NCBI GenBank assembly: GCA_902540235.1
Contig: CACBLI010000001.1
Coordinates: forward strand, 1 to 64,000
Length of the DNA: 64,000 nt
Source: an uncultured Pelagibacteraceae bacterium
GTDB lineage: Bacteria; Pseudomonadota; Alphaproteobacteria; Pelagibacterales; Pelagibacteraceae
Direction of reading: 5' to 3'
Made by a program: the position numbers and the translations under genes. Positions within the stretch are counted from its first letter, which is position 1. Every line of letters starts with the position of its first letter. Under the pieces are notes generated by a model that saw only the letters and a program-made list of their open reading frames with translations, did not search any database and had not been told where the DNA came from. Positions 5,748-8,841 of this stretch are shown here, one piece after another.

Positions 5748-7238
5748 TTAATTATTTTTTAAACAACCGAGTAGATAATTCATTATTTGTGTATTATTAA
5801 GTCCTGTCTTTATAGCTTGATTACATTTAATATTATTTTTAACTAAATTAAAAATTTGCATTCTATTACCATATTTAATCTCTGAAATATTTGACATTTC
5901 CCAATTGTGATCTGATTGAATAATAACAGTTGCATTTTTGTCTATTTCTTCAATGTTATCAATAATATCTTTAATTCTTTTAACAACACATAAATATGAA
6001 TTTTTATATCCTTCAAAATTAGTCTTTCCTTCAAATTTCTTGTAATTACAATTTGCATCATGTCTATAAGGCCAATGAGGTGACATGTGATGTACGAAAT
6101 AAAAAGTAGAATTAGTTTTGATGTAATTTTGACTAGAAATCATAAACTTTCTTAATTTACTAATTGCATCATTTCTTTGATTAATTTGTAAATGCTTCTG
6201 AACAAAACTAGCCTCTGTTAGTTTGTTAAAAATTTGAAGAAAAGGTGTCTTTTTTAAAAAGGCTTGAAGAAGATAAAAATCAATATGTTGCTCCTTTTTA
6301 TCACTAAGACAGTACTTGTAATTATACCGTGAGCAGTTCGCAAAACTATTTCCAATCCATTTAAATTCATAACCTAACTTATTTAGTTCAGAAACTAATT
6401 TTGGATTATATTTTTTTCTCATAATGCCAGGAAAAGTTCTATAAATATCTGGCTTATAATAATTTCTTTCCGCACCTTTTTTATAACTAATAAAAATTTC
6501 TTCCTCTAAAAAAAATAAAGATGTTAAAATTTCAGTCGTATTTGGATAAAAATTTAGGGTATTCTCAAAGTATTTATAATTTTTTTGATTAAAAAAATTT
6601 TTAAAATTTGATAAGTCTGTTTTATAGTAATTTTCAAATTCATTTAAAGGCATCATCGCATCGAGAATGAAATAGTAAATATTTGGTTTTTTAATTTTTG
6701 TGATTAACTGATTGTTATTATTATTCAATATTTCGTTAACTTTTATTTTTGAATAAAATTCTGTGGTAAACTGAATGGTTGAAAAAAAAAGATTAAGACT
6801 TAAAAAAAGTAAAAAAAAGACTGAAAAAATTTTTTTTTTTTTAATTAAATTAAAAGACAGATAAATCAAGGTTAAAATAATAATAAGAGAGATTTCTGAA
6901 GAAAATTTCAATAACACTTCAATATTTTTAAAAAAAATATTTAAGTTTGTTTTAAAAAAATTATGTTGGAATAAAATCCAAGTAGAAATTGATAAAAATG
7001 AGACTAATGAGTATCCCTGTAAAGAAACAAAAAAACCTAAAATCAAATAGGTAGAGTAAATTAAGGAAAAATAAATTGTTAATAAAATGAGTAAGTTGTT
7101 ATTAAATATAAAGTCTAGCTCTTCTAAATTTGCATTAAAAAACTCAATCCATGGAATTAAAGTTAGTGTAAAAAGAATTATTATTAAAAAGGTTTTTAGA
7201 AAGTATTTATTGAAATTCTCAGACTTTAATATAATCAT
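5748..7238 (-). CDS. Membrane-anchored sulfatase / phosphoethanolamine-transferase-like protein
   Basis: A 496-residue protein whose first about 160 residues are four to five hydrophobic helices, followed by a periplasmic alkaline-phosphatase-superfamily domain. That domain opens with YYFILDAM (first metal-site Asp), has a Thr/Ser-rich PNTTEILTS segment where sulfatases carry the nucleophile, then HHMSPHWPY and a closing SDHNW metal pair. The design matches EptA/MdoB/LtaS-type transferases that add phosphoethanolamine or glycerol phosphate to surface glycans. Its start codon lies back-to-back with the small YLDPGTGS gene on the other strand. A run of 13 T (6830-6842; A in the mRNA) lies in the lysine-rich linker. 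Phosphotransferase versus sulfatase is undecided. Confidence 0.7.
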   Translation of the reverse strand: MIILKSENFNKYFLKTFLIIILFTLTLIPWIEFFNANLEELDFIFNNNLLILLTIYFSLIYSTYLILGFFVSLQGYSLVSFLSISTWILFQHNFFKTNLNIFFKNIEVLLKFSSEISLIIILTLIYLSFNLIKKKKIFSVFFLLFLSLNLFFSTIQFTTEFYSKIKVNEILNNNNNQLITKIKKPNIYYFILDAMMPLNEFENYYKTDLSNFKNFFNQKNYKYFENTLNFYPNTTEILTSLFFLEEEIFISYKKGAERNYYKPDIYRTFPGIMRKKYNPKLVSELNKLGYEFKWIGNSFANCSRYNYKYCLSDKKEQHIDFYLLQAFLKKTPFLQIFNKLTEASFVQKHLQINQRNDAISKLRKFMISSQNYIKTNSTFYFVHHMSPHWPYRHDANCNYKKFEGKTNFEGYKNSYLCVVKRIKDIIDNIEEIDKNATVIIQSDHNWEMSNISEIKYGNRMQIFNLVKNNIKCNQAIKTGLNNTQIMNYLLGCLKNN

Positions 7239-7244
7239 TTGACA

Positions 7245-7475
7245 GTGAAAAAAATTTTAAATTATTTATTTTTAAACATTATAGCAATTTTATTGGTTGT
7301 TACTAATGCTTATGCATATTTGGATCCTGGAACTGGGAGTTTTATTCTGCAGGCTATCATTGGTTTTTTAGCAGCTCTATCAGCAGGTTTTTTATACTAC
7401 TGGACAAAAATAAAAAATTTTTTCTTAAATGTTTTTAAGAAAAAAAATAATGATGAAAAAACTGATACTAGATGA
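7245..7475 (+). CDS. Small membrane protein with YLDPGTGS motif
   Basis: A 76-residue protein from GTG 7245 (an in-frame TTG lies two codons earlier at 7239). It has an N-terminal hydrophobic helix that could be a signal sequence ending near NAYA, then the strongly conserved-looking YLDPGTGSFILQ, a second hydrophobic helix and a lysine-rich cytosolic tail. I recognise YLDPGTGS as the hallmark of tiny proteins found beside surface-glycan genes; I know of no assigned function. The tail overlaps the following methyltransferase, and the start is about 6 bp from the divergent sulfatase-like gene. The three probably act together, for example as a scaffold for glycan modification. Confidence 0.6.
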   Translation: MKKILNYLFLNIIAILLVVTNAYAYLDPGTGSFILQAIIGFLAALSAGFLYYWTKIKNFFLNVFKKKNNDEKTDTR

Positions 7476-8841
7476 TGGATCATTTAGAGATCCAGACGCA
7501 AGAGTAGCCTACTTTAAAGACTCTGTTTACAGAATTGTATATCAAAATGGTTTTAAAAAGTATGATTTAATTAAAAAGATACTTGGAAAAGACGAAATTT
7601 CAAAATATTTAATTGAAACGAAAGAAGTAGACCAAAACGAGCTTAGTTTTTTAGAACTTGAAAATCAAAAAGATATAAAAGTGTTTAAACATAAAAAGAT
7701 AGATTACGTCACATATCCTTATGAGTGGAGTTTTAATAGATTAAAAGATGCAGCATTGCACCATTTAAAATTACATTTAAATCTTCTAAAAAATAATGCG
7801 ACTTTAATCGATGCATATAGTTATAACATCCAATTTGATAATTATTCACCAATATTTATTGATCTTACATCGATTAAGGAATATTCAGACGGCGAATTTT
7901 GGACTGGACATAAACAATTTTGTGAAAGTTTTTTAAATCCACTTATTTTAAAATCTAAATTAGGAATAAATTTCAATAATTGGTTTAAAGGTAATTTAGA
8001 GGGAATTAGCACTGATGAACTTTCTAAAATACTAAAATTTAGTCATATGTTTTCATGGAATATTTTTTATAATGTTTTTCTTCTCAATCATTTTGAGAAA
8101 AAATATAAAAAAAATGAGGATTTAAAGATAGCAAAAAATAAAAAATTAAAAAAAAACTATTACTTATCAATCCTTTCAAATTTACTCAATTTTATTAATA
8201 ACTTAGAAGTTAAAAAAGAGACTAGCGTTTGGAGTGAGTATTCAAGAGATAATACTTATAATGATGAAGAAAAAAAAAATAAACGTGAGTTTGTAAAAAA
8301 TTATCTTAGCAAAAATAATTTTGATAAAGTTTTGGATTTGGGTTGTAATAATGGAGAATATTCTAAGCTGGCGTTACAATCAGGTTGCAAGCACGTAGTA
8401 GGTCTAGATTATGACTTAAATGCTATTGATGAAGCTTATTTGATTTCAAAAAAAGAAAAACTAAATTTTTTACCTTTATATTTTGATGTCTCAAACCCTA
8501 GTTCAAACATTGGATGGAGACAAAAAGAGAGAAAGGGTTTTTTAGAAAGGCTTAATTTTGATTTTGTATTAGCTCTTGCTTTTGAGCATCATTTGACAAT
8601 TGCAAAAAATATACCACTAGAGAACGTTATTAGCTGGATAGTATCATTAGCACCTAAAGGTATAATAGAATTTGTACCTAAAAACGATGTCACAATTCAA
8701 TCGATGATGAAATTAAAAGGTGATATTTTTCCAAATTATAATTTAGAGAATTTTAAAAATTTATTATTAAGAAATGCAAAAATATCTTCAGAAAAAATTG
8801 TTAGTAAATCTGGTAGAATTTTGTTTTCTTTTGAAAAATAA
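7453..8841 (+). CDS. NoeA-like SAM-dependent methyltransferase
   Basis: Possible starts are ATG 7429, 7450 and 7453; 7453 (MKKLILDDGSFRDP) is preferred because it keeps the overlap with the previous gene to 23 bases. The product is 462 residues. The N-terminal half has FRDPDARV, a YPYEWS segment and a DAYSYNIQF...PIFIDLTS stretch reminiscent of a degenerate kinase-like fold. The C-terminal half is a class I methyltransferase with VLDLGCNNGEYS and the second acidic motif VVGLDYD. This two-part layout matches proteins annotated as NoeA-related, first noted among host-specificity nodulation genes. It may methylate a glycan or its lipid carrier; the target is unknown. Confidence 0.7.
   Translation: MKKLILDDGSFRDPDARVAYFKDSVYRIVYQNGFKKYDLIKKILGKDEISKYLIETKEVDQNELSFLELENQKDIKVFKHKKIDYVTYPYEWSFNRLKDAALHHLKLHLNLLKNNATLIDAYSYNIQFDNYSPIFIDLTSIKEYSDGEFWTGHKQFCESFLNPLILKSKLGINFNNWFKGNLEGISTDELSKILKFSHMFSWNIFYNVFLLNHFEKKYKKNEDLKIAKNKKLKKNYYLSILSNLLNFINNLEVKKETSVWSEYSRDNTYNDEEKKNKREFVKNYLSKNNFDKVLDLGCNNGEYSKLALQSGCKHVVGLDYDLNAIDEAYLISKKEKLNFLPLYFDVSNPSSNIGWRQKERKGFLERLNFDFVLALAFEHHLTIAKNIPLENVISWIVSLAPKGIIEFVPKNDVTIQSMMKLKGDIFPNYNLENFKNLLLRNAKISSEKIVSKSGRILFSFEK

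Follow-up and report, generated by a model that had tools for sequence, protein, structure and literature searches.

The noeA and noeB genes are a long-known pair (Ardourel 1995, as cited in PMC9758233), and together with nodL they form the nodL-noeA-noeB operon of S. meliloti, a set of host-range genes for the nodulation of particular Medicago species. The kinase nature of NoeA is also already known: the Legionella anisa homologue Lani_1194, which has an AlkP (alkaline phosphatase)-fold neighbour, was read as a kinase plus methyltransferase, with its kinase fold described and the corresponding residues of protein kinase A (PKA) named (PMC9758233). Conservation of the L. anisa neighbourhood was given there as 65% for Lani_1193 and 38% for Lani_1195 (of 816). 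We analysed a 64,000 nt stretch from an uncultured Pelagibacteraceae bacterium (the window; GenBank assembly GCA_902540235.1, contig CACBLI010000001.1, positions 1 to 64,000), which encodes relatives of both partners together with a membrane microprotein carrying the motif YLDPGTGS (hereafter YLD). This trio is a widespread module and not a peculiarity of SAR11, and the microprotein and the AlkP-fold enzyme are its constant core. The main text of PMC9758233 assigns no role to the YLDPGTGS microprotein, and reports neither the replacement of NoeA by cytidine diphosphate (CDP)-headgroup systems nor the sulfo-parallel described below; Lani_1193 may be the same microprotein.

In the window, the NoeB-like AlkP/sulfatase-fold inner-membrane enzyme is encoded on the minus strand (7238..5748; 496 amino acids (aa), with N-terminal membrane helices and an extracytoplasmic catalytic domain), divergent from the YLD gene on the plus strand (7245..7475; 76 aa, GTG start, with an alternative TTG start at 7239). 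The two starts are 6 bases apart, and an identical 6-base gap was found in the relatives L080 and L082. The open reading frame (ORF) of the NoeA-type kinase-methyltransferase (7450 or 7429 to 8841, plus strand) begins inside the 3′ end of the YLD gene, with an overlap of about 26 nt. A consensus-based scan for promoters and terminators gave 22 promoter-like sites versus 29.8 in shuffled sequence, and is thus uninformative on how the divergent pair is read. The surroundings form a SAR11 surface-polysaccharide island, as read from translations of glycosyltransferases, nucleotide-sugar enzymes, an ABC exporter and an SIS isomerase, and the microprotein gene is single-copy in this genome. All three genes, their divergent starts about six bases apart, the 76-residue two-helix protein and the surface-glycan setting had been part of the original prediction made from the DNA alone, and each was recovered here, with the two helices corresponding to a predicted signal peptide and one transmembrane helix.

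Relatives of YLD were gathered from 197 Pelagibacteraceae genomes, from GTDB contigs (80 of 434 relatives fetched) and from plasmids, giving 87 distinct loci, of which 67 have at least 3 kb on both sides (full-flank loci); partners were found with profiles built from the neighbourhoods. An AlkP-fold gene lies within 7 kb of YLD in 61/67 full-flank loci and within 2 kb in 53/67, although these loci were picked for YLD content and the counts do not give the frequency of the AlkP gene on its own. Locus L141, missed by the AlkP model, carries a PF00884 protein, and L041 has an AlkP-like neighbour when judged by eye. The density of AlkP genes is approximately 18–25 per 100 kb within 2 kb of YLD versus 0–2.5 farther out. 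NoeA is present in 42 of the full-flank loci, and over all loci it adjoins YLD downstream on the same strand in 50 of the 54 that have it, with the one-strand order YLD-NoeA-AlkP in 34 loci, including 24 outside Pelagibacter. The reciprocal search used a sample of 398 Pseudomonadota genomes not conditioned on YLD, where NoeA was found in nine genomes, each with YLD no more than 2 kb away (p=2.7e-13 for co-occurrence, hypergeometric). Together, the census and the reciprocal search show that the arrangement of the trio is not due to chance. The earlier claim of a conserved unit is therefore borne out: the AlkP partner is rarely missing, the small protein does not mostly occur alone, and the trio extends far outside SAR11.

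The NoeA and AlkP-fold genes of the S. meliloti operon are those of the module, in the same order and with a YLD ORF just upstream of noeA; the window differs in lacking nodL and in having its AlkP gene in divergent orientation. On pSymA of strain 1021 this ORF lies between nodL and noeA at approximately 419,058–419,306 (L228:2059-2307), a stretch over which the PLSDB gene table of that strain has no feature, while the annotation of an Ensifer canadensis plasmid reads nodL, hypothetical protein (YLD), noeA, noeB. One SAR11 genome (L043) encodes YLD and the AlkP protein as one fused reading frame of 556 aa, with YLD at the N-terminal end. The close relative L080 has the same head-to-head AlkP/YLD pair as the window, with NoeA missing at L080:9977-10454; two genes upstream of its AlkP gene a protein of 557 aa is encoded, whose kinase domain scores slightly below the Pfam cut-off.

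The window NoeA matches only generic methyltransferase models in Pfam and NCBIfam (Methyltransf_23, 28.5 bits with a cutoff of 27), yet it appears to be more than a methyltransferase, as its N-terminal half (7450..8214) keeps kinase catalytic residues: R28, D121, N126 (D121xxxxN126) and D138 of the kinase active site are invariant in 20 NoeA sequences including that of the window, with Arg replacing the β3 Lys. The C-terminal part (8215..8841) is a class I S-adenosylmethionine (SAM) methyltransferase domain, with the SAM motif D-x-G-x-N-x-G kept in the NoeA alignment (D296xGxNxG in the window). In the structure model (predicted local distance difference test (pLDDT) score 88.8), residues 256–463 correspond to this domain, with a Z-score of about 13 to known methyltransferases, and its fold matches include MePCE, BCDIN3D and WbdD, which methylate phosphate. 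The kinase-like half was absent from the fold-search list of the whole model, but as that list is filled by methyltransferase matches, this absence is no evidence against a kinase fold.

YLD loci lacking NoeA often have a CDP-glycerol-glycerophosphotransferase-like protein (Glyphos_transf; PF04464 in Pseudomonas), detected with a model built from members of 320–420 aa. The two are mutually exclusive, with NoeA only in 42, Glyphos_transf only in 17, both in 0 and neither in 8 of the 67 full-flank loci (Fisher p=3e-10). Beside Glyphos_transf we found either a phosphoenolpyruvate (PEP) mutase-cytidylyltransferase fusion and a phosphonopyruvate decarboxylase (above the cut-offs of TIGR02320 and TIGR03297, respectively) with an iron alcohol dehydrogenase, or alternatively pyruvate phosphate dikinase (PPDK)-like PRK05849 proteins with gamma-glutamyl-CDP-amidate-hydrolase-like and nucleotidyltransferase proteins. 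The latter set presumably resembles the Campylobacter methyl-phosphoramidate pathway, going by the NCBIfam name, and the genes flanking Glyphos_transf often look like pathways for cytidine monophosphate (CMP)-activated small headgroups. A tree of 66 AlkP proteins has 18 changes of charging-enzyme label, and when only strongly supported branches count, at least 7 changes are required for Glyphos_transf and at least 11 for NoeA. YLD and the AlkP enzyme thus stayed in place through repeated exchange of the charging enzyme. At L141:5257-11548, genes resembling those for 2-aminoethylphosphonate (PEP-mutase-like, decarboxylase-like, class V aminotransferase and nucleotidyltransferase) run into YLD and a Glyphos_transf-type gene, which suggests a glycan decorated with an aminophosphonate. 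YidC-like (60KD_IMP) insertase paralogs were detected near YLD in seven loci (L096, L101, L119, L130, L137, L141 and L142), with a partial case in L114 and only the periplasmic domain in L102. A YidC paralog was considered as a dedicated YLD insertase and set aside as a general explanation, since the copy in L032 is the housekeeping yidC, making the link suggestive only.

The kinase residues of NoeA and its replacement by CDP-headgroup systems bear directly on how the module may work. The original prediction was of a glycan-decorating unit with methylation in the cytosol, a separate phospho-substituent added outside and a scaffold in between. Its placing of the small protein functionally between a cytosolic and an extracytoplasmic enzyme still stands, and a methyltransferase and an AlkP-fold enzyme are indeed both present, but the notion of two separate decorations is not supported: with its kinase residues and its failure to co-occur with CDP-headgroup transferases, NoeA speaks for one phospho-type cargo, and we give two decorations hardly any credence. 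The evidence is better read as a single phospho-type group that is charged in the cytosol and transferred on the outside. We propose, as a moderately probable mechanism, a relay in which the NoeA-type kinase-methyltransferase would ready a small phospho-group in the cytosol, most likely methyl phosphate, which the membrane AlkP-fold transferase would set on a surface glycan outside the inner membrane, with the YLD microprotein, its Tyr-Leu-Asp-Pro-Gly end facing outward, coupling the cytosolic and outer enzymes. The cytosolic charging enzyme would be exchangeable, being NoeA here and CDP-headgroup transferases with phosphonate or phosphoramidate pathways elsewhere.

The YLD protein of the window matches no Pfam or NCBIfam family. 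It is predicted to have a cleavable signal peptide followed by a short Y-[LI]-D-P-G end that faces outward, a single transmembrane helix and a tail in the cytosol, a topology which follows from rules on the cleavage-site residues, the K/R-free loop and the positive tail. The putative signal peptide (MKK...NAYA, with an A-x-A site at its end) is encoded at 7245..7316, the motif, predicted to be extracytoplasmic, at 7317..7340, with the Tyr codon at 7317-7319 as would-be mature N-terminus, and the transmembrane helix with the Lys/Arg-rich tail at 7341..7475, all on the plus strand. Positions A24, Y25, D27, P28 and G29 are invariant in an alignment of 36 diverse members. The Tyr is present in all 87 loci, which is partly circular because the collection scan required A-Y-[LI]-D-P, but profile searches without the Tyr requirement also recovered family members. 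In 86 members the residues at −3/−1 before the Tyr are A/A in 67, S/A in 18 and V/A in 1; the 8-residue loop never has K or R, the median net charge of the tail is +5 and the mean hydropathy is 1.7.

The family was found in Pelagibacter, Rhizobium, Mesorhizobium, Pseudomonas, Microbulbifer, Bdellovibrionota, Desulfobacterota, Bacteroidota, KSB1, Omnitrophota and Gastranaerophilales, and in two metagenome-assembled genomes (MAGs) which are apparently thaumarchaeal, being archaeal by bin label. A contig labelled as an Acidimicrobiaceae MAG (L088) carries a Pelagibacter-type module nested among Pelagibacter on the AlkP tree, and is probably misbinned. Weak SAR11 matches of the first family search (L022-L028; E about 0.005, several with internal stops) were set aside as chance. 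A complete YLD-NoeA-AlkP module directly follows tail-fibre genes (PHROG tail families) on a viral-collection contig (L029:4917-8756; IMGVR_UViG_3300048852_000112), the sole match in two scans of that collection, and could represent phage-borne modification of the host surface. On a 7.8-kb single-cell contig the same gene is present in inverted orientation at both ends (L106:33-752 and L106:7005-7724), probably as a result of amplification or an assembly chimera.

Profile searches also drew in a second family of small proteins, with Y-x-G-P-G instead of Y-x-D-P-G (YxGPG). The profiles of the two families align with an hhalign probability of 98.2 (E 5.8e-14), although both are short and hydrophobic. 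The YxGPG operon consists of a PF14269 arylsulfotransferase (ASST), the microprotein, a membrane protein of 120–250 aa and a PF13469 sulfotransferase of the type dependent on 3′-phosphoadenosine-5′-phosphosulfate (PAPS). It is complete in ten loci (L182-L188, L042, L045 and L046), with L044 ending at a contig edge and L199-L208, L215 and L223 as further YxGPG loci. In the 398-genome sample, PF14269 occurs in 25 genomes and is adjoined by the microprotein in 12 of these. No ASST or PAPS-type sulfotransferase was found in YLD loci and no NoeA or Glyphos_transf in YxGPG loci, where the only two matches to the AlkP model were the microproteins themselves, taken as an artefact because the L043 fusion was in the training set. 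YxGPG is thus a likely counterpart of YLD in sulfate-adding operons, and the common pattern is a cytosolic enzyme spending an activated group, a Tyr microprotein and an extracytoplasmic transferase of the same chemistry.

This pattern allows a more specific version of the relay, which we regard as unlikely, in which YLD itself is the group carrier: its mature N-terminal Tyr would bear an activated aryl ester as donor for the AlkP enzyme or ASST, as DltX does for D-alanine. With the same reserve, the cargo would be Tyr-O-methylphosphate in NoeA loci, Tyr-O-phosphonate in CDP loci (phosphoramidate also being proposed) and Tyr-O-sulfate with YxGPG, making these proteins phospho- and sulfo- counterparts of DltX. 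Conservation of the Tyr in both families, whose profiles align, is consistent with such a role, as is the matching of chemistry on the inner and outer sides in both operon types. ASST takes its sulfuryl group from aryl sulfates, with the physiological role of most of these enzymes poorly understood (PMC13426309), and there is precedent in DltX, a Tyr microprotein shuttle, and the Tyr peptide of PatA, which deliver acyl groups to transferases on the outside (PMC12148441). However, the exported Tyr should face outside while charging is the work of cytosolic enzymes, and the frequent neighbour clusters yielded no recognisable MBOAT-like channel. Nor does L043, where the microprotein is fused N-terminally to AlkP, suit a disposable carrier; spending one protein per group would be costly unless it is recycled, and the homologue in L203 has YMGAG instead of YxGPG.

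The AlkP family conserves the metal ligands D193, H383, D443 and H444, with a Thr/Ser nucleophile column seen by eye. The window protein has no match in Pfam, PF00884 (Sulfatase) included, or in NCBIfam, although its relatives NoeB and the L127 homologue do match PF00884, and phmmer against PDB sequences gave no match at E<1, and thus no detectable similarity to solved EptA or MCR. In a structure model with a pLDDT of 76 the closest folds were the MCR/EptA phosphoethanolamine transferases, PbgA and LtaS, at 10–16% identity and modest TM-scores. An enzyme of this fold might be a hydrolase which takes off or edits a group that NoeA had put on the glycan in the cytosol by WbdD-like capping. The AlkP superfamily contains many hydrolases, and the kinase-methyltransferase WbdD, a structural neighbour of the NoeA domain, acts on O-antigen (PMC9758233). 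The nearest folds, however, are membrane transferases and not soluble hydrolases (given the modest TM-scores), and the parallel system pairs with ASST, a transferase, which makes the hydrolase reading quite improbable.

A role for the microprotein in merely assembling or stabilising the AlkP enzyme in the membrane, with the charging enzymes loading a lipid carrier flipped by unrelated machinery, is a possibility to be taken seriously, if a doubtful one. It would fit the L043 fusion and the AlkP enzyme being the most constant partner, as well as the biochemistry of relatives: EptA, MCR and LtaS take headgroups from phospholipids, and the PF04464 CDP-glycerol transferases act on lipid-linked acceptors. 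However, NoeA more often overlaps YLD or comes directly after it than AlkP adjoins it, and the sister YxGPG accompanies ASST, which has an unrelated fold, so that an AlkP-specific chaperone fails to explain both families.

The relay from a cytosolic charging enzyme to the AlkP-fold transferase is consistent with what was computed: the gene linkage, the exchangeability, the conserved catalytic residues, the folds and the parallel sulfo-version. From these we infer a methyl-phosphate product, outward transfer, a glycan acceptor and physical coupling. Several observations weigh against it. The L043 fusion is the only direct tie of YLD to either enzyme; unrelated small-molecule methyltransferases score equally to the phosphate methylases against the NoeA domain; 8/67 loci, L080 among them, are without a recognised charging enzyme; and most AlkP relatives share only about 15% identity with the window protein and may thus have different substrates. 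No biochemistry was found for any member of the module in the literature searched. In the open-licence literature, the text string YLDPGTGS had no match among 5.39 million papers, no paper was found on ASST paired with a small membrane protein, and nothing was found on the microprotein as the constant member, on CDP-headgroup systems exclusively replacing NoeA or on the sulfo-parallel.

The recognised but unexplained noeA/noeB pair thus gains an overlooked third member and a concrete proposed chemistry, joining Nod-factor and surface-glycan host range, marine phosphonate glycans and ASSTs of unknown natural donor. The YxGPG counterpart suggests a general way of passing such groups over the membrane. 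Were the Tyr-carrier version true, it would constitute a general microprotein route by which groups derived from ATP, CTP or PAPS reach polymers outside, and the natural donor of these ASSTs would be identified.

Of the known systems, WbdD of E. coli O9a resembles NoeA in combining a kinase and a SAM methyltransferase in one cytosolic protein, and the methyltransferase domains superpose with a Z-score of 12.8. The domain order is reversed, with the methyltransferase first in WbdD (NoeA 256–463 aligns to WbdD 7–210) and last in NoeA, and WbdD is treated as a separate kinase-methyltransferase family (PMC9758233). The window AlkP protein shares with EptA, MCR and LtaS the combination of membrane helices with an extracytoplasmic AlkP-fold domain, a likeness at the level of the fold only. 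In teichoic-acid D-alanylation, DltX is likewise a membrane microprotein, whose invariant Tyr on the extracellular side connects a donor on the inside with a transferase on the outside (PMC12148441), but it has a C-terminal FXYXXF motif, acyl cargo and MBOAT and SGNH partners, whereas YLD has AYLDPGTGS near its N-terminus and phospho partners, with no MBOAT seen. Finally, the PAPS-independent ASST operons of the PF14269 clade carry a sister microprotein, detectable by profile, between the ASST and the PAPS sulfotransferase, and differ from the YLD module in their sulfuryl instead of phosphoryl chemistry, in GPG instead of DPG, and in the extra membrane protein of 120–250 aa.

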